Of a DNA stretch of 54,421 nt, positions 11,974 to 35,504 are shown piece after piece (the first letter of the stretch is position 1; each line of letters begins with the position of its first letter). Source of the stretch: Sandaracinaceae bacterium (GTDB lineage Bacteria > Myxococcota_A > Polyangia > Polyangiales > Sandaracinaceae); contig JAHBWG010000065.1 in assembly GCA_019637095.1 (NCBI GenBank), positions 1 to 54,421 on the forward strand, read 5' to 3'. Made by a program: the position numbers and the translations under genes. The notes under the pieces are model-generated. The model was not told where the DNA came from. It ran no database searches and worked only from the letters and a program-made list of their open reading frames with translations.

Positions 11974-13086
11974 TCAGCCGCGCGACGAGCCGTCGCACAG
12001 CAGCGCGAGGAGGCGCTCGCCGTAGCGGGCGACGCGCTTGTCGCCCAAGCCCGGGACGGCCGCGACCGAAGCGGCGTCGACGACCGCGAGCGCGGACAGG
12101 TCCCGGAGACAATGCCCCGGCAACACCACTTGCACGTCGACACCGCGCGCGGCGGCCTCGGCGGCGCGCCACGAGGTCAGGGCGCTCTCGCGGGCGCGCA
12201 GGACGCGGCGGACCGCCGGGTCTGGCGCGGGAGGCGGCGGCTCGGGCGGCGCGGCCGCCCGCCGCTCGGCCTCGGCGAGGGCCGCGCGCAGGGCGTCGCT
12301 CGGCATGCGGTGGAGCCCGCGGATGCGGCGCAGGTCCTCGGCGCGGCGCGGGCGGCGCTTGGCGGCCTCGAGGAGCGCGGCGTTCGGCGCGACGCGGAAC
12401 GGCGGTACGTCCTGTTCGCGCGCCACCTCCTCGCGCGCCTCGGCGAGCGCGAAGAGGAGCGCCCGCGCGGGCGGCGTCAGGTCCATCGCGCCCTTGATCC
12501 GCGAGCCGGGCTCGCGGACGGGCTCCGGCTCGAGCGCGCGCTCCATCGCGTAGCGCGTCTCCTCGTCGATCTCCTCGAGCACGTCGAGCGCGAGCGCCGC
12601 CTCGCGCAGCTCGCGCGCGAGCGCCGGCAGGTGCACCACGTCGGCCGCGAGGTACGCGAGCTGATCGTCGGTCAGCGGCCGCGCGCCCCAGTCCGCCCGC
12701 TGGTGGCGCTTGTCGAGGACGACCTCGAAGCGCGCCTCGAGCAGCGCCGCGAGGCCCGTGCTCGGCTCCCCCAGCATCCGCGCCGCCGCCGCCGTGTCGA
12801 AGACCGGCGCGAGCGGCAGGCCGCGGCTCGCCAGCATCTTGCGGTCGAACGAGACGTCGTGGACGACCTTGAGCGGCCCCTCGGGGCCGAGGAGCGGCGC
12901 GAGCGGCGAGAGATCCTCGATGGCCAGCGTGTCGATCACGTGGGCGCGCTCACCGTCCGCGAGCTGGAGCGTGCAGAGGCGCGTGCGGTAGCGGAAGAAG
13001 CCGTCCCCCTCGGCGTCGAGGCCGAGGACCTCGGCCTCCGCGAGCGCCTCGGCGAGGGCGGCGAGGGCGGTGGCCGAGCGGATCAT
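11974..13086 (-). CDS. rnd: Ribonuclease D
   Basis: A 370-residue DEDDy 3'-5' exoribonuclease, close to the usual length. Exo motif I is LDAEGDGF (D-x-E), motif II lies in VVHDVSFDRKML, and motif III is YLAADVVHL (Y-x3-D). The C-terminal half holds HRDC-like helical regions (DALRAALAEAERR, then VPGLGDKRVARYGERLLALL). RNase D trims tRNA precursors and other stable RNAs at the 3' end. The ATG at 13086 (MIRSATAL) is chosen; a longer frame overlaps the divergent promoter and the dciA-like gene. A TACCAC box ends 8 bases upstream. Confidence 0.9.
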   Translation of the reverse strand: MIRSATALAALAEALAEAEVLGLDAEGDGFFRYRTRLCTLQLADGERAHVIDTLAIEDLSPLAPLLGPEGPLKVVHDVSFDRKMLASRGLPLAPVFDTAAAARMLGEPSTGLAALLEARFEVVLDKRHQRADWGARPLTDDQLAYLAADVVHLPALARELREAALALDVLEEIDEETRYAMERALEPEPVREPGSRIKGAMDLTPPARALLFALAEAREEVAREQDVPPFRVAPNAALLEAAKRRPRRAEDLRRIRGLHRMPSDALRAALAEAERRAAAPPEPPPPAPDPAVRRVLRARESALTSWRAAEAAARGVDVQVVLPGHCLRDLSALAVVDAASVAAVPGLGDKRVARYGERLLALLCDGSSRG

Positions 13087-13094
13087 GGTGCCGG

Positions 13095-13115
13095 GTGGTA
13101 GCACGGGGCTACATT
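13095..13115. promoter_or_regulatory. Divergent -10 elements for rnd and the dciA-like gene
   Basis: TACCAC (13100-13095, minus strand) ends 8 bases before the RNase D ATG. TACATT (13110-13115, plus strand) ends exactly 6 bases before the GTG at 13122. The two start codons are only 35 bases apart, so the promoters must overlap and may compete. The plus-strand element favours GTG 13122 over GTG 13095. Confidence 0.5.
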
Positions 13116-13121
13116 CAGCGC

Positions 13122-13597
13122 GTGGCGAAACGCGCGGCACGGAAGGGCTCTCTCCGCTCGGTGGCGGACATCCTCGCCGGCACCTACCCCGGGCGCACGG
13201 AGGACCTCACGCTGATCCGCACGTTCGCGTGGTGGGAGCGCGCGGTGAGCCGGCGGATCGCGGAGGCCGCGCGCCCGGTGAAGCTCTCGCACGGGACGCT
13301 CTACGTCCACACGCGCTCGAGCGCGTGGGCGCAGGAGCTCACGTTCCACGAAGAGGAGCTGCTCGCCTCGGTCCGACGCGTGGCGCCGGCCGTACAGCGG
13401 ATCCGCATCAAGATGGGCCCGATGCCGCCGCCCGGGCAGGCGCCCGATCCCGTGCCGCCCAAGACGGTACCGCTCCCGATGACGGAGCTGCCGGGCGAGA
13501 TCGCGCGCGCGCTCGCGAAGATCGGCGACGACCGAGTGCGCGAGGTGGTCGGCCGCGCCGCGTGCACCACCCTGGGCGCCGCGAAGGAGCCGAAGCG

Positions 13598-13601
<4 letters not shown>
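13122..13601 (+). CDS. DUF721/DciA-like protein
   Basis: A 159-residue basic protein. The core resembles the DUF721 (DciA) domain: SVADILAGTYPGR, then FAWWERAVSRRIAEAARPV, then GTLYVHTRSSAWAQELTF. DciA loads the replicative DnaB helicase in bacteria that lack DnaC. The C-terminal third is Pro-rich, then helical. GTG 13122 (MAKRAARKGS) is used because of the -10 element 6 bases upstream; GTG 13095 would add nine residues. The stop overlaps the ATG of the radical SAM gene (ATGA). DciA function is inferred from family membership only. Confidence 0.8.
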
Positions 13602-14680
<1,079 letters not shown>

Positions 14681-14682
14681 CC

Positions 14683-15864
14683 TCAGAGGTCGAACAGGGT
14701 GCGCGCGTCGATCTCGTCCCAAGGCGAGCGCGCCTCGAACGAGAGCGGGACGCCGGCGAGACGGAGCGTCTCGACGACGCCCGGCACGAGCACCGGCGCG
14801 CGCCGCTCCATCGGCACGTCGCACCCGAGCAAGTCCATGTACTCGTCCTCCACGAACGGCTCCGGCGCGCGCTCGGAGCGCCGGGTCGACCACGTCCGCA
14901 CGTGCGCGCCGCCGTCGAGCCAGCGGTCCCGCCGCGCGAACGCGCCAGGCGGCCCCTCGACGACCTCCACGTGGCGCTGCACGACGCCGGCCTCCGACGT
15001 CCACGTGTACCGCCACTCGGTGGGCTCGAAGTCGAGGTCGCACGGATCGGTGCGCTCCGAGACGAGGTCGCCGGCCGCGTCGTAGGCGTAGGTGCTCCGC
15101 GCGCAGTGCGTCCCCGTCGCGGCTTCCGTCCGCCACGTCGCGCTCGCGAGCGTCCCGTCCGCGTTCCACTCCACCGTCTCCTCGAGCGGCCGGATCGAGG
15201 CCGCCCGCGCCACGCGCGCCTCGTAGGCGCGCCCGCGGATCGTCGCGCGGCGCGCGACGTGGTCCACCTCGATCACCGCGCGCGAGGCCTCCGACGCACC
15301 CGGCTCCTCGACGCGCACCGCGACGAGCCGCCCGTCCTCGCCGTACTCCCACGTGCGGCGGCGCACGAGGCCCTCCCAGTCACCGTGGCGCACCGTGAAC
15401 ACCAGCGGTCGACCGTCCTCCGCGTACTCGCGGTGCTCCTCCGCGACGAGGAGCGGCGGGGGCTCCGGCTCCGGCGGCGTGTGGCCGTACTGCTCCCACA
15501 CGCGGTAGTGCGCGACGCGTCCGCCGGCGTCCCACGCGACGATCTCGACCCGCTGCGCGCGGCTGCCGTCCGGGTCCCCTTGGAACACGCGCGCGAGCCG
15601 ACCGCTCGCGTCGCGCTCGAGCTCGAGGTAGCGAGCGGCGAGGCCGTCCGGGCCGACCCGGCGACAGGTCGCGGCGATCGGGACCGCGCCGTCGCGGAGC
15701 TCGCTCGGGCCCGCGTCCGGGGCCGCCGCGTCCACGGCGCCCGCGGCGCCCGCGTCGGTGAGCGCCGCCGGGCCCGCGTCGGGCGCCGGCGCGACCCCGG
15801 ACGTCCCGCACGCGGTGAGGAGAAGGAACGCCGAGGTCCGCGAGAGACGAGAGGTGAAGGTCAT
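14683..15864 (-). CDS. Lipoprotein with YD-like (RHS-type) repeats
   Basis: A 393-residue protein with a lipoprotein signal (MTFTSRLSRTSAFLLLTAC, lipobox LTAC), followed by a low-complexity Ala/Asp/Gly linker (about 22-55). The mature part carries repeated strand pairs of YD/RHS type: YAEDGRPLVF, WEYGEDGRLVAV, VEWNADGTLASATW and YAYDAAGDLVSERTD. These suggest a beta-rich surface or periplasmic protein without a toxin tip. The ATG at 15864 is chosen for the signal peptide; a longer frame crosses the divergent gene. Function is unknown. Confidence 0.75.
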   Translation of the reverse strand: MTFTSRLSRTSAFLLLTACGTSGVAPAPDAGPAALTDAGAAGAVDAAAPDAGPSELRDGAVPIAATCRRVGPDGLAARYLELERDASGRLARVFQGDPDGSRAQRVEIVAWDAGGRVAHYRVWEQYGHTPPEPEPPPLLVAEEHREYAEDGRPLVFTVRHGDWEGLVRRRTWEYGEDGRLVAVRVEEPGASEASRAVIEVDHVARRATIRGRAYEARVARAASIRPLEETVEWNADGTLASATWRTEAATGTHCARSTYAYDAAGDLVSERTDPCDLDFEPTEWRYTWTSEAGVVQRHVEVVEGPPGAFARRDRWLDGGAHVRTWSTRRSERAPEPFVEDEYMDLLGCDVPMERRAPVLVPGVVETLRLAGVPLSFEARSPWDEIDARTLFDL

Positions 15865-15911
15865 GCGTCGGGACTCCGCAACGAGCGTTCCAGTCGGCGA
15901 CACCGACACAC

Positions 15912-15939
15912 CGCGCGCCGCGCGATCGCGCGCCGCGCG
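15912..15939. repeat. 13-bp direct repeat in a divergent intergenic region
   Basis: CGCGCGCCGCGCG occurs at 15912-15924 and again at 15927-15939, separated by AT. Each unit is itself nearly self-complementary. It lies between the divergent YD-repeat lipoprotein and cNMP/kinase genes (15865-16033), where no other gene is supported. It may be a regulatory site or just GC-rich low complexity. Confidence 0.3.
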
Positions 15940-16033
15940 TGCGGGCACGGCCGCGCCGTCACGATCGTTGCAGCCGCGCGGCGGCGATCGGCCTCGCGCC
16001 GCGGGCGAGCGGCGTGGTAGTCGATGAGGTCGG

Positions 16034-18208
16034 ATGCCCGCACCGCACGCCGACCTCGCGACCCTGCGCCGCGTCGAGCTCTTCGCCTGCTTCGACGACG
16101 ACGAGCTCACCCGGCTCGGCGACGCGCTCCAGCCGCGCCACGTCCCCGCCGGTGAGGTGATCGTCCGCGAGGGAGACCGCGACCGCGGCCTCTACGCGAT
16201 CGTCGAGGGGAGCGTGCGCGTCATGCACGACGACCTGCACCTCGGCACGCTCGGGGTCGGCGAGCACTTCGGCGAGCTCGCGCTGATCACCGGCTCGACG
16301 CGCACCGCGAGCGTCATCGCCGACCGCGCGTCGCGCCTGCTCTCGCTCGAGGCCGACGCGTTCGAGGCGTTCGCCGAGGGCCACCCGCGCATCGCGATCC
16401 GGCTCCTGCGCGAGGTGGTCGCGAGCTCCTCGGCGCACCTCAGCCGCATGAACGAGACGCTCGGCGGGCTGCTGCGCGAGCGCGGGCTCCCGCGCCGCGT
16501 CGACGTCCAGGTCCGGCTCGACGGCGAGGTGCGCACCGTCCACAACGGCACGCTCGCCCGCGCGCTCCTGCCCGAGGCGATCGATGGAACGCCGGTCGTC
16601 GCCGCGCTCGTGAACGGACGGCCCCGCCCCCTCGACGCACCCCTCAACGGCAACGCGACGCTGGCGCCGCTGACGACCGCGCATTGGGAAGGCCAGCGCA
16701 TCTACCGGCACAGCCTGGGCCTCGCCCTGCTCGAGGCGGCGCGCGAGCTCGGCGTCCGCGTGCGGCTCGGCCCCTCGCTCGGCTTCGCGCAGCGCGTGCT
16801 GCTCGTCGAGCCGACCGATCGCGCCGAGCTCGCGGACGCGCTCGAGCAGGCGATGCGCGCGCTGATCGCCCGGGACGCGCCCCTCGTGCGCGAGCGCGTC
16901 GGCGTGGCCGAGGCGATCGACTACTTCGCGCGGGTCGGCTGGGCGAGCGCGGCGCGCCTCGCGGACACCACGCGCGACGCCGCCATCACGCTCGCGTCGT
17001 ACGGCGAGCTGTTCGTCCCGGAGCACGGGCCCTTCCTGCCGAGCACCGGGCGCCTCTCGCACTTCGGGCTCGTCGAGGACGAGGCGGATCTGCTCCTCGT
17101 CTTCACCGTGCCCGGGCACGAGCGCGCCGGGCCGCCCGAGGTCGTCGCGCGCGACCGCGCGGCGCGGATCTCCGGCCTGCCGCCCGCGAGCCTCGCCCTC
17201 GTCGCGCGCGACGTCTCGCGCCGCGCCGTGCGCATGACCGAGCAGCAAGAGCGCTGGCTCGACACGCTCGGCGTGAGCTGCGTCGGCGACTTCAACCGGC
17301 GCTCGATCGACGGCGCGGTCGGCGAGCTCGTCCACGTCGCGGAGGGCTTCCACGAGAAGAGCCTCGGGCGCATCGCCGACGCGCTCGCCGCGAACGCGGA
17401 CCACGTCCGCATCGTGTGCATCGCCGGCCCCTCGTCCTCCGGCAAGACGACGTTCATCCGCCGGCTGCGCGTGCAGCTCCAGGTCAACGGCATCAACCCG
17501 AAGGGGCTCGGGCTCGACGACTACTACGTCGACCGCGACGCGACGCCGCGCGACGCCGACGGCGACTTCGACTTCGAGAGCCTCGAGGCGCTGCGCCTCG
17601 ATCTGTTGGTCGATCACCTCGGCCGCCTCGCGCGCGGCGAGCCGGTGCGCACCGCGCACTTCGACTTCAAGGCCGGGCGGAGCCACGCGGAGGGCGGCCC
17701 CGTGATCCGGCTCGAGGAGCACGATCTGTTGATGCTCGAGGGCATCCACGGCCTCAACCCGCGCCTCTACGAGCACCTGCCCGCGGACAAGATCTTCCGC
17801 ATCTTCGTCTGCCCGCTCGTGCAGCTCCCGTTCGACGATCTGACGCGCATGCACGCGAGCGATCTGCGCCTCTTGCGCCGCATCGTGCGCGATCGTCACG
17901 GCCGCTCGCAGGACGCCGCCGAGACGATCCGCCGCTGGCCCAAGGTCCGCGCCGGCGAGCGCACGCACATCTTCCCCTACCAGCACCACGCCGACGAGGT
18001 CTTCGACACCTCGCTCGTGTACGAGGTGTCGGTGCTGAAGGTCTTCGCCGAGCGCTACCTGCTCGAGGTCCCGCGGCACCACGACGCCCAGGCGACCGCC
18101 GAGCGCCTGCTCGCGCTGCTCGATCGCTGGATCACCATCTACCCGGACCACGTCCCGCCGACCTCCATCCTCCGCGAGTTCATCGGCGGCAGCGGCTTCA
18201 CGTACTGA
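16034..18208 (+). CDS. Fusion of cNMP-binding domain, TGS/tRNA-synthetase-type editing domain and uridine-kinase-like domain
   Basis: A 724-residue multidomain protein. Residues about 8-125 are a cyclic-nucleotide-binding domain (LFACFDDDELTRLGDAL, GEVIVREGDRDRGLYAIVEG, GEHFGELALITGSTRTASV). A TGS-like region follows (about 150-215), then a threonyl-tRNA-synthetase second-additional-domain-like segment with EGQRIYRHSLGLALLEAA. The C-terminal third is a phosphoribulokinase/uridine-kinase-type P-loop kinase with Walker A GPSSSGKT (465-472), LDDYYVDRDATPRD and LMLEGIHGLNP. TGS-kinase fusions are known as a branch of nucleoside kinases. The added N-terminal cNMP sensor suggests control by a cyclic nucleotide or a related ligand. 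No DNA-binding domain is present. The substrate is unknown. ATG 16034 begins directly before the cNMP domain. Confidence 0.88.
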   Translation: MPAPHADLATLRRVELFACFDDDELTRLGDALQPRHVPAGEVIVREGDRDRGLYAIVEGSVRVMHDDLHLGTLGVGEHFGELALITGSTRTASVIADRASRLLSLEADAFEAFAEGHPRIAIRLLREVVASSSAHLSRMNETLGGLLRERGLPRRVDVQVRLDGEVRTVHNGTLARALLPEAIDGTPVVAALVNGRPRPLDAPLNGNATLAPLTTAHWEGQRIYRHSLGLALLEAARELGVRVRLGPSLGFAQRVLLVEPTDRAELADALEQAMRALIARDAPLVRERVGVAEAIDYFARVGWASAARLADTTRDAAITLASYGELFVPEHGPFLPSTGRLSHFGLVEDEADLLLVFTVPGHERAGPPEVVARDRAARISGLPPASLALVARDVSRRAVRMTEQQERWLDTLGVSCVGDFNRRSIDGAVGELVHVAEGFHEKSLGRIADALAANADHVRIVCIAGPSSSGKTTFIRRLRVQLQVNGINPKGLGLDDYYVDRDATPRDADGDFDFESLEALRLDLLVDHLGRLARGEPVRTAHFDFKAGRSHAEGGPVIRLEEHDLLMLEGIHGLNPRLYEHLPADKIFRIFVCPLVQLPFDDLTRMHASDLRLLRRIVRDRHGRSQDAAETIRRWPKVRAGERTHIFPYQHHADEVFDTSLVYEVSVLKVFAERYLLEVPRHHDAQATAERLLALLDRWITIYPDHVPPTSILREFIGGSGFTY

Positions 18209-18300: not shown

Positions 18301-18359
18301 TGGATCCAGTCGGGGAGCTGTAAGCGACGGTAGGCGTCGTCGGCGCGGCGCGCGTGCTC

Positions 18360-18365
18360 TACCCT
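18360..18365 (+). promoter_or_regulatory. -10 element for the VWA lipoprotein gene
   Basis: TACCCT ends exactly 6 bases before GTG 18372, the same spacing as at several other genes in this window. It supports GTG 18372 over GTG 18354 as the start. No clear -35 is seen. Confidence 0.45.
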
Positions 18366-18371
18366 CGGCGG

Positions 18372-19493
18372 GTGCGCGCCGTCCTCGTCTCGTGGTTGCT
18401 CGCCGGGTGCGCGGTGTCGGGCGGCGGTGGGGCCGACGCGAGCGGTCCGGGCGCCGACGCGGGCACGACACGCACGGACGCGGCGCGCGAGCTGCTCGAC
18501 GCCGAGGCGCCGACCTGTGAGACGACCACCGCGCGCGCCGAGCCGCTCCCGGCGACGCTGCTGGTCAACCTCGACACGAGCGGGTCGATGAACTGCCTCG
18601 CGTCCGCCGCGTCGTGCGCGGTCGGCGACCCGACGCCCGCGCCCGACGACTCGCGCTACGACGTCCTGCGCATCGAGCTCGTGCGCGCGCTCGGGCTGCT
18701 CCCGGACACGACGCGCGTCGGCGTCATGCACTACCCGGACACGTTCAGCTGCTCGCGCGACGGGCTCCTCGTCGGCATCGCGCCGCTCGCGTCGAGCCGC
18801 GTCGCGATCGAGGCCGCGCTGCTCGGCGTCGCGCCGGAGGGCATCACGCCCACGCGCGACGCGGTCGACAACGCGCTGCGCCGGCTGCGGGCCGAGGACG
18901 ACGCCCGCCCGCGCTATCAGATCCTCGCGACCGACGGCGCGGCGACGGTGTGCCTGGGCTGCGACGCGGCGTGCTCGTTCGACGCGCTCGATCGCGACAA
19001 CGAGGCGCTCGTCGCGGACGTCGAGCGCGCGGCCACCGCCGACGACATCCGCACCTTCGTGATCGGGGTGCCGGGCTCGGCGAGCTACCGCCCGATCCTC
19101 TCCCGCATGGCGAGCGTCGCCGGCACCGCGCGCGCCGGCTGCGCGGTCGGCGGGCCCGCCTTCTGCCACTACGACCTGACCGATCCCGCGCTCGACTTCG
19201 GGGGCGCGCTGCGCGCCGCCCTCGGCGCGATCGGAGAGGCGGTGCTCTCGTGCGAGTACGCGATCCCGCCCAACCCGGACGGCGCGTTCGATCCGACGAA
19301 GGTCAACGTGCGGCACACGAACGACGAGGGCGAGGTCGAGCGGATCGGGCGCGACCCCAGCCGCCGCGACGGGTGGGACTACTCGGACGACCTGTCCCGC
19401 ATCGAGCTCCACGGGGCCGCGTGCGAGCGCGTGCGCGCGACCACGCGCGGGCAGCTCGAGGTGCTGTTCGGCTGCCCGACCGAGCTGATCTGA
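18372..19493 (+). CDS. VWA-domain lipoprotein
   Basis: A 373-residue protein with a very short lipoprotein signal (MRAVLVSWLLAGC), then an Ala/Gly/Asp-rich linker. The von Willebrand A domain has an intact MIDAS start, NLDTSGSMN (D-x-S-x-S), followed by a Cys-containing insertion, DTTRVGVMHYPD, GITPTRDAVDNALRRL, and a later strand YQILATDGAAT. Many cysteines suggest disulfides outside the cytoplasm. It is probably anchored to a membrane and binds a protein or metal; the partner is unknown. With the alternative GTG 18354 the signal peptide would be 19 residues, also plausible. It stands between the 87-bp palindrome and the convergent HupE-like gene. Confidence 0.83.
   Translation: MRAVLVSWLLAGCAVSGGGGADASGPGADAGTTRTDAARELLDAEAPTCETTTARAEPLPATLLVNLDTSGSMNCLASAASCAVGDPTPAPDDSRYDVLRIELVRALGLLPDTTRVGVMHYPDTFSCSRDGLLVGIAPLASSRVAIEAALLGVAPEGITPTRDAVDNALRRLRAEDDARPRYQILATDGAATVCLGCDAACSFDALDRDNEALVADVERAATADDIRTFVIGVPGSASYRPILSRMASVAGTARAGCAVGGPAFCHYDLTDPALDFGGALRAALGAIGEAVLSCEYAIPPNPDGAFDPTKVNVRHTNDEGEVERIGRDPSRRDGWDYSDDLSRIELHGAACERVRATTRGQLEVLFGCPTELI

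Positions 19494-20670: not shown

Positions 20671-20674
<4 letters not shown>
19514..20674 (-). CDS. HupE/UreJ-like membrane protein
   Basis: A 386-residue protein with an N-terminal hydrophobic segment ([18 protein letters not shown]), a periplasmic beta-type domain of about 150 residues, and a C-terminal half with about six membrane helices. The HupE/UreJ family motifs are visible: [34 protein letters not shown] and [17 protein letters not shown]. Members are metal (nickel/cobalt) permeases or related proteins of unknown substrate; no hydrogenase or urease is near. The ATG overlaps the stop of the fused trpBA gene (ATGA), so it is probably the last gene of the che-trp run. It is convergent with the VWA gene, 20 bases away. 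Confidence 0.82.
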
Positions 20675-22737
<2,063 letters not shown>

Positions 22738-34839: not shown

Positions 34840-35504
34840 ACGAGCCCTCCGCGCGCTTCCTCTTTCTTGCCGAGCAGCTCGTAGAGCTCGCGCAGCGCCG
34901 CGAGGTCGGGGACGATGATCCGCTCGTCGTGGATGCGGATGTAGCCGCCATCGCGCAGCTGCTGGACCGCGCGCTTGACCGCGTCGACGTCGAGGCCGAC
35001 GCGGCTCGAGAGCTCGAGCGGCGAGATCGACAGGACGTGCCCTTCGGGCGTGCGCTCGTGGAGCGCGGCCAGGCGCAGGAGCGTGTTGACGACGCGGCTC
35101 GGCCGGTCGCGCAGCATCGCGTTCTCGAGCTGCTCCTCCGCGTGACGCAGGCGCCGGACGACCTGCTCGACCAGGCGCAGCGCCACGTCCGGGTTGCTCG
35201 AGAGCAGGACCCCGAAGGTGCGCCGATCGAGCGCGAGCGCGGAGACGTCCGTCAACGCGACCGCCGCGGCGCCGCGCCGCGCGGAGGTCATCAGCGCGTC
35301 CTCTCCGAAGAGATCGCCGGGGCGCAGCACCGTCAGGCTCCGTTCGGTCGAGCGGATGCGCTTCACGAGCCGCACCCGTCCGTCCTGGATCAGGTAGCAG
35401 TGGGTCGCCTCGTCGCCCTCGGCGTAGATCGGCGCGCCCGCCTCGAACGACCGTCCGAACCGCGAGAACAGCTGCGCACGCTCCGCATCCCCGAGCTCGT
35501 CCAC
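34836..35504 (-). CDS. Crp/Fnr-family transcription regulator
   Basis: A 222-residue regulator. The cNMP-binding domain covers about 10-130 (GAPIYAEGDEATHCYLIQDG, RPGDLFGEDALMT). A long helix follows, then the winged HTH (SISPLELSSRVGLDVDAVKRAVQQLRDGGYIRI). The ligand pocket has GEDAL in place of the FGEL-arginine pattern of true CRP, so cAMP binding is not assured. The start is a GTG with TACCAA 6 bases upstream. It is translationally coupled to the PilF-like lipoprotein. Confidence 0.92.
   Translation of the reverse strand: MDELGDAERAQLFSRFGRSFEAGAPIYAEGDEATHCYLIQDGRVRLVKRIRSTERSLTVLRPGDLFGEDALMTSARRGAAAVALTDVSALALDRRTFGVLLSSNPDVALRLVEQVVRRLRHAEEQLENAMLRDRPSRVVNTLLRLAALHERTPEGHVLSISPLELSSRVGLDVDAVKRAVQQLRDGGYIRIHDERIIVPDLAALRELYELLGKKEEARGGLV

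Follow-up and report, generated by a model that had tools for sequence, protein, structure and literature searches.

Gene and domain architecture

The window that we analyzed is a 54,421-nucleotide stretch of DNA from a Sandaracinaceae bacterium (GenBank assembly GCA_019637095.1, contig JAHBWG010000065.1, positions 1 to 54,421). Within it, a gene on the plus strand (16034..18208, +) begins with an ATG start codon and encodes a protein of 724 aa. Based on Pfam and a structural model, the product is assigned four parts in the order cNMP domain, TGS domain, threonyl-tRNA synthetase (ThrRS) editing-like domain, and P-loop kinase. Pfam analysis of the 724-aa protein identified cNMP_binding (PF00027) at residues 35-115 (E 3.5e-20, 72.2 bits against a cut-off of 27.5) and PRK at residues 460-658 (E 2.6e-12, 47.4 bits against a cut-off of 22). 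The AlphaFold2 model of the full-length protein has a pTM of 0.75 and a mean pLDDT of 88.5; when this model was used as a Foldseek query, the matches included cNMP domains of the PKG/CRP type, ThrRS (1qf6), and the editing domain of ThrRS (1tje, TMt 0.71). Fused full-length homologues, encoded in genomes from its order and its phylum, align to the 724-aa protein with 44-61% identity. Together with the Pfam and Foldseek results, these homologues confirm that the fusion architecture is real and far beyond chance. The first-pass annotation had described a 724-residue protein that joins cNMP, TGS, synthetase-editing-like, and P-loop kinase parts, and this description proved correct based on Pfam, the ThrRS profile, and Foldseek.

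Upstream of the gene are a DciA-like gene and the gene for an AmmeMemoRadiSam enzyme, with a divergent ORF in between. The enzyme (13070-14680, +) is a radical SAM enzyme of the AmmeMemoRadiSam system (614 bits against a cut-off of 220). The divergent ORF (14683-16110, -) has a weak RHS-repeat match, and its listed frame runs into the beginning of the kinase gene; its true start is probably further inside. The kinase gene is followed by an ORF (18354-19493, +) to which Pfam assigned no family, and both this ORF and the divergent ORF appear lipoprotein-like by eye. Elsewhere in the window, a frame on the minus strand (20671-22737, -) encodes a 688-aa TrpB-TrpA fusion, with tryptophan synthase beta at residues 4-383 and alpha at residues 444-674. 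A promoter and terminator scan found nothing.

Distribution, phylogeny and gene neighborhood

Among 56 genomes of relatives, including that of the window itself, 20 contain a match to the non-cNMP part of the protein, with best E-values <1e-100. Within its own family, the gene was identified in only two of 10 genomes (G000 and G007), suggesting that it is accessory. In a draw of genomes from across the phylum, at least 82 of 377 gave matches with E-values of 1e-40 or lower, a count that may be low because two candidates per genome were scored at a strict E-value. In 46 of these 82 genomes, a listed match reached the cNMP part (query start ≤100); the rest hold unfused copies, fragments, fusion-length frames without a listed cNMP segment, or proteins of the ATP-cone type. 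Forty loci were additionally searched in all six reading frames, using the kinase part and the cNMP part as queries.

To place the fusion on a tree, we used 66 kinase rows (42 fused and 24 unfused) in a careful and a quick IQ-TREE run. A single clade holds all 42 fused rows and three unfused rows (L045, L118, and L100), with bootstrap and SH-aLRT values of 100 and 100. The tree is rooted on a single long-branched sequence (L049). The fusion label requires three changes on this tree, and the starred branches force three; based on such counts, which cannot separate gain from loss, one gain and two losses would be the simplest history. One row without the cNMP domain, L100, is among the five rows nearest to the 724-aa protein. 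Absence of the N-terminal domain from close relatives was the outcome that the first-pass annotation had named as a refutation; for the most part the domain is retained, with 42 of the 45 clade rows fused and L100 as the exception. Fused and unfused copies of the kinase occur within one genome in G100 (L099 and L100) and in G167 (C342 and C507). Using a six-frame HMM search, we found no separate cNMP domain in the DNA around the unfused copies L045, L100, L118, L079-L098, and L049.

Some loci were handled separately. Four (L040, L042, L044, and L047) come from contigs equal in length to those that carry L010, L011, L015, and L018; we regarded them as duplicates and dropped them, and L048 was excluded because it diverges from its relatives past about query residue 380. 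L041 and L099 are identical; both are among the 66 rows of the tree, and L099 is left out of the 65-row residue counts. L025 is cut by a contig edge, which leaves just the last part of its cNMP domain; it is labeled as fused in the tree and falls outside the 40-row count of the phosphate-binding cassette.

For the neighborhood comparison, we aligned 27 clade loci and 21 unfused loci using six-frame BLAST, with L042 and L044 standing in for L011 and L015. The flanks of the clade loci extended up to about 6 kb or to the contig end, and they were wider in the window. Among the matches listed for the 27 clade loci, no frame other than the kinase is common to more than three loci (the close trio L105-L107); among the 21 unfused loci, a neighboring frame is common to at most five. 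Of the larger groups in the clade comparison, two were listed incompletely or include long frames that extend beyond the kinase gene. Because no neighbor is conserved beyond close relatives, the pattern fits a stand-alone regulated enzyme.

Cyclic-nucleotide-binding domain

Based on Pfam and the secondary structure of the model, the cNMP-binding domain and its long C-terminal helix occupy residues 8-149 (16055..16480, +), with the Pfam core at residues 35-115. Structure comparison aligned this domain with CRP/PKA-type domains (Z 16-19). The phosphate-binding cassette, FGELALITGSTRTASV, occurs at residues 79-94 (16268..16315, +) and includes Glu81 and Arg90; we take these two cassette residues to be the ones that hold the cyclic phosphate-ribose. 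Based on residue counts, 35 of 40 aligned fused sequences retain Glu and Arg together. Position 91, which presumably helps to set the preference for cAMP or cGMP, is Thr in the 724-aa protein (8/40 fused sequences) and Ala in 25/40.

Five fused sequences (L046, L113, L114, L115, and L116) lack both the cassette Glu and the cassette Arg, and in these the sensor has probably decayed or acquired a changed ligand. The absence of the domain in L045, L100, and L118, together with the loss of the cassette Glu and Arg in these five, suggests that cNMP control is dispensable there. The genome of the window contains 10 class III cyclase matches, as well as 15 further places that resemble a cNMP domain. 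One of the latter is located elsewhere in the window (35073-35453, -; E 3.3e-6), within a 226-aa open frame.

These observations also bear on a reading in which the kinase is not gated by a cyclic nucleotide, and the cNMP domain serves instead as a structural or dimerization unit or as a sensor of some other ligand (FNR/CooA-type). CRP-fold domains bind diverse ligands, which we count in favor of this reading along with the loss or degeneration of the domain in several lineages; however, 35 of the 40 fused sequences retain Glu and Arg in the cassette, and class III cyclases are encoded in the genome. We therefore regard the absence of gating as improbable and prefer the reading in which the domain would respond to a cyclic nucleotide.

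TGS/ThrRS-like middle module

The middle of the protein consists of a TGS-like beta-grasp domain at residues 155-214 (16496..16675, +), identified by ThrRS profile alignment, the model, and Foldseek, and a domain resembling the N2 (editing) domain of ThrRS at residues 215-360 (16676..17113, +), identified by the profile and Foldseek and shown by residue counts to lack conserved metal ligands. We built a profile of residues 152-362 from 23 sequences; this profile matched the N-terminal domains of ThrRS (1tje, E 4e-13; 1nyq, 1.2e-12; 1qf6, 3.9e-12), and the alignment to 1nyq begins at profile position 12, from the TGS region of ThrRS. The profile also matched the mitoribosomal protein mL39 (E about 2e-5), and the TGS domain of an RSH (stringent-response) protein, 2kmm, reached only E 0.23. 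Pfam gave no match to TGS (PF02824) in the 724-aa protein; in two of the six relatives scanned (L088 and L092), a match to this family was detected below the threshold.

The editing domain of ThrRS carries a metal/editing motif consisting of HxxxH and CxxxH, and we take its metal ligands to be numbered H73, H77, C182, and H186. Residues 226, 230, 330, and 334 of the 724-aa protein align with these four positions; the first is His226, and the other three are L, E, and F. Across the family, His occurs at the H73 position in 6/65 rows and Cys occurs at the C182 position in 5/65 rows. At the H77 position, His was found in none of the 65 rows, and at the H186 position, it was found in none of the 62 of 65 rows that were listed. 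Because the ThrRS metal ligands are lost, editing activity is not expected, and a ThrRS editing enzyme was rejected as a candidate on the same grounds. The earlier label “tRNA-synthetase-editing-like” thus holds for the fold and does not extend to the metal and editing residues, which are not conserved.

The first-pass annotation had also pointed to the binding of (p)ppGpp by TGS domains. This was not borne out: the TGS domain of RelA is pinned by the CCA end of the tRNA (PMC4974054). Given this contact, tRNA is a more natural guess than (p)ppGpp for what the middle module may bind.

In one alternative, the protein acts as a translation-linked switch. Its TGS/ThrRS-like module would bind the tRNA acceptor end or the ribosome, the kinase would phosphorylate an RNA end or act as an ATPase timer, and the cyclic nucleotide would be a second input. 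The homology of the middle module to the N-terminal domains of ThrRS and to mL39 points in this direction, as does the contact between the RelA TGS domain and the tRNA CCA end (PMC4974054). However, no conserved translation genes adjoin the kinase gene, and mean column identity is lower in the TGS/ThrRS-like part (49%) than in the kinase (72%). Considering these points along with those from the kinase module and its relatives described below, we view a translation-linked switch as unlikely.

Kinase module and altered acceptor pocket

Based on Pfam and on sequence and fold matches, the kinase module comprises residues 392-724 (17207..18205, +). The Walker A motif, or P-loop, has the sequence GPSSSGKTT at residues 465-473 (17426..17452, +), and the catalytic Asp495 (17516..17518, +) occupies the position of Asp62 in UCK2. 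Lys471, Asp495, and Glu569, which include the equivalents of UCK2 Asp62 and the Mg-binding UCK2 Glu135, are present in 65/65 rows. An arginine-rich lid, DLRLLRRIVRDRHGR, was identified from the alignment and residue counts at residues 610-624 (17861..17905, +), and the lid arginines are invariant. The module ends in a family-specific C-terminal tail (residues 709-724; 18158..18205, +) that finishes with REFIGGSGFTY; based on residue counts, R714, E715, F716, and G718 of this tail are invariant in 65/65 rows.

According to PMC9163393, the 5'-hydroxyl in UCK2 is activated by Asp62, the ribose hydroxyls are bound by Asp84 and Arg166, and base specificity is set by His117 and Tyr112. Two of these residues are replaced in the 724-aa protein: Glu515 (17576..17578, +) stands where UCK2 has the ribose-recognizing Asp84, and Gly548 (17675..17677, +) stands where it has the base-recognizing His117. 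Both replacements occur in 65/65 rows. At the position of UCK2 Tyr112, Tyr is found in 56/65 rows, and the 724-aa protein has Phe. The T. thermophilus structure 3asy has Tyr at the base-reading position of UCK2 His117.

When the kinase module was used as a Foldseek query, uridine-cytidine kinases ranked first (3asz, E 7.4e-10). In the VIA-align comparison, the top Z score was that of type I pantothenate kinase (CoaA; Z 17.3 over 221 residues, rmsd 3.5, 16% identity), and the aligned range of CoaA takes in the N-terminal helices of the kinase module; UCK2 aligned with Z 14.6 over 190 residues. Pantothenate kinase is absent from the Pfam and NCBIfam listings for the 724-aa protein. A kinase-like fold was also matched in the N-terminal domain of S. 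pombe Tad2 (7eey), a tRNA deaminase subunit (Z 14.2 over 172 residues); this match spans residues 62-318 of the kinase model, so that here, too, a URK-like domain forms part of a tRNA enzyme. The match to Tad2 counts in favor of the translation-linked switch.

TmUK of Thermotoga maritima is described as a “uridine kinase” with three domains, one of which is a threonyl-tRNA synthetase domain, and the protein is common to T. maritima and Treponema pallidum (PMC10248530). According to that report, full-length TmUK has no uridine kinase activity, truncated TmUK formed no UMP (one truncation was insoluble), and the full-length protein has ATP phosphatase activity when uridine is present (PMC10248530). 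Its authors state that these results fit the hypothesis of Wolf 2000, which concerns translation autoregulation (via PMC10248530), and this fit is a further point for the translation-linked switch.

The kinase evidence also bears on whether the protein is an ordinary salvage kinase for uridine or cytidine, equipped with a cyclic-nucleotide switch and a merely decorative TGS module. Uridine kinases or uridine-cytidine kinases are the top sequence and Foldseek matches, 56 of the 65 rows have Tyr at the position of UCK2 Tyr112 (Phe in the 724-aa protein), and the ATP phosphatase activity of TmUK arose with uridine present (PMC10248530), all of which would suit a salvage enzyme. However, the 724-aa protein scored only 55.2 and 65.3 bits against the NCBIfam uridine-kinase models (TIGR00235 and NF004018), for which the cut-offs are 220.3 and 180, and the residues that read ribose and base are swapped for Glu515 and Gly548. 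Moreover, the genome already has a canonical Udk: its other PRK-family protein is a 207-aa open frame with normal FDHP and YDFATH motifs. TmUK is reported to have formed no UMP (PMC10248530), which also speaks against salvage. We find an ordinary salvage kinase very doubtful.

A reading as a uridine kinase only was rejected based on the low NCBIfam scores and the changed pocket residues. The proposal of a nucleoside kinase in the first-pass annotation is weakened by the Glu/Gly pocket in 65/65 rows, by the separate canonical Udk, and by the reported lack of UMP formation by TmUK (PMC10248530). The acceptor pocket differs from the pocket found in uridine/cytidine kinases; judging from homology and the residue swaps, the enzyme probably has a natural substrate other than uridine.

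ATP-cone relatives

We drew 148 genomes from Bacteroidota, the phylum of the genome that contains L049, and 15 of them had a kinase match at the threshold of E 1e-30 or better. None of these 15 matches reached the cNMP part; they consist of the TGS/ThrRS-type protein of L049 and 14 frames of 446-475 aa, nine of which are represented by the loci L122-L130. Pfam identified an ATP-cone at the N-terminus of the three short-form proteins that were scanned (E 7e-21, 3.6e-22, and 1.7e-21). In the same Pfam scan, no TGS/ThrRS module was seen in these three relatives (446-447 aa), which argues against the translation-linked switch. Using phmmer with a stretch of L122, we identified the ATP-cone in 13/13 short-form loci (L122-L130, including the query, and L133-L136); the last four loci come from three genomes of the phylum of the window and were picked for their short frames.

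The ATP-cone is a nucleotide sensor, and its presence in 13/13 short-form loci indicates that nucleotide-sensing domains of no fewer than two kinds have been combined with the kinase module. The kinase of L122 aligns with 36% identity over 325 residues, and Glu515, Gly548, and the C-terminal tail are shared in 10/10 rows, comprising the 724-aa protein and nine ATP-cone kinases. The same catalytic module is thus paired with cNMP-TGS-ThrRS, with TGS-ThrRS alone, or with an ATP-cone.

Proposed function

The fusion protein is conserved and under-described, and it belongs to a functionally orphan family. Three-domain ThrRS-like/kinase proteins were already known; the cNMP-fused form is a variant of them. 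In open-licence PMC literature, as represented by titles and the start of abstracts, we found no paper on the cNMP-fused form, which is no proof of its being unpublished, and the papers searched there named no reaction for the ThrRS-like/kinase family.

Our preferred reading, in which our confidence is evenly balanced, is that the protein belongs to the uridine-kinase superfamily and works as a cNMP-controlled P-loop kinase, or as an ATPase stimulated by its substrate, probably acting on a substrate other than uridine. Such a cNMP-controlled kinase or ATPase is possibly linked to tRNA or the ribosome. In the mechanism that we propose, a 3',5'-cyclic nucleotide would bind the N-terminal domain; the simplest candidates would be cAMP or cGMP produced by the organism's own class III cyclases. 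Control would then run toward the C-terminus, with the change upon cyclic-nucleotide binding relayed to the kinase through the long helix at residues 118-149 and then the TGS/ThrRS-like module. The kinase module would act with its retained ATP-Mg and catalytic residues, on an acceptor held in a pocket that is not of the uridine/cytidine-kinase type. The sequences show the domains and their conservation, the catalytic residues, the altered pocket, the loss of the editing site, and the single clade of fused proteins, whereas ligand binding, the direction of control, the substrate, and any contact with RNA are inferred. Points against this reading are the lack of a conserved partner gene, the three clade members without the cNMP domain, the five fused sequences without the cassette Glu and Arg, and the Asp at the UCK2 Glu135 position in the ATP-cone kinases.

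A more far-reaching version, which we consider speculative and rather unlikely, is that the Glu/Gly pocket and the REFIGGS tail mark an unrecognized kinase family whose substrate is the end of an RNA or else some unlisted nucleotide. Bacteria would have wired this family repeatedly to sensors of nucleotides, using a cNMP domain in Myxococcota and an ATP-cone in Bacteroidota as well as in some Myxococcota, and also to a ThrRS relic that binds tRNA. In myxobacteria, a cyclic nucleotide would then directly set a phosphorylation linked to translation or to RNA.

Should the preferred reading prove correct, a cyclic-nucleotide second messenger would be linked directly to a bacterial metabolic or RNA kinase. 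Handles on this protein are offered by the existence of fused and ATP-cone forms and by the pair of invariant changes in the pocket: a ligand, residues to mutate, and a search for substrates other than uridine.

Comparison with known systems

If TmUK has the domain order TGS-ThrRS-URK, as we assume, then the 724-aa protein fits that description, with a ThrRS-like module on a URK-superfamily kinase based on Pfam, Foldseek, and the profile. As described, TmUK resembles the 724-aa protein in combining nucleoside-kinase-superfamily and ThrRS domains under a “uridine kinase” annotation; unlike TmUK, the 724-aa protein has an N-terminal cNMP domain (PMC10248530). The findings that no UMP was formed and that ATP phosphatase activity occurred with uridine are reported for TmUK only and not for the 724-aa protein (PMC10248530).

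Compared with the N1-N2 domains of ThrRS and with mL39, the middle module has the same TGS and editing-domain fold; in contrast to ThrRS, the 724-aa protein has neither the conserved editing/zinc ligands nor the synthetase core. UCK1, UCK2, and T. thermophilus Udk (3asy/3asz/3w8r) share with the kinase module the P-loop, the catalytic Asp, the Mg-binding Glu, the arginine lid, and the fold. Whereas uridine-cytidine kinases have Asp and His at the positions of UCK2 Asp84 and His117, the family has Glu515 and Gly548 (65/65 rows), and it differs further in an insert before the lid, the conserved REFIGGS tail, and a helical N-terminal extension.

The ATP-cone kinases L122-L130 have the same Glu515/Gly548 pair and the same tail as the 724-aa protein; however, they carry an ATP-cone instead of cNMP-TGS-ThrRS. 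All nine have Asp, not Glu, at the position of UCK2 Glu135 (9/9), indicating that the active site differs in part among the relatives.
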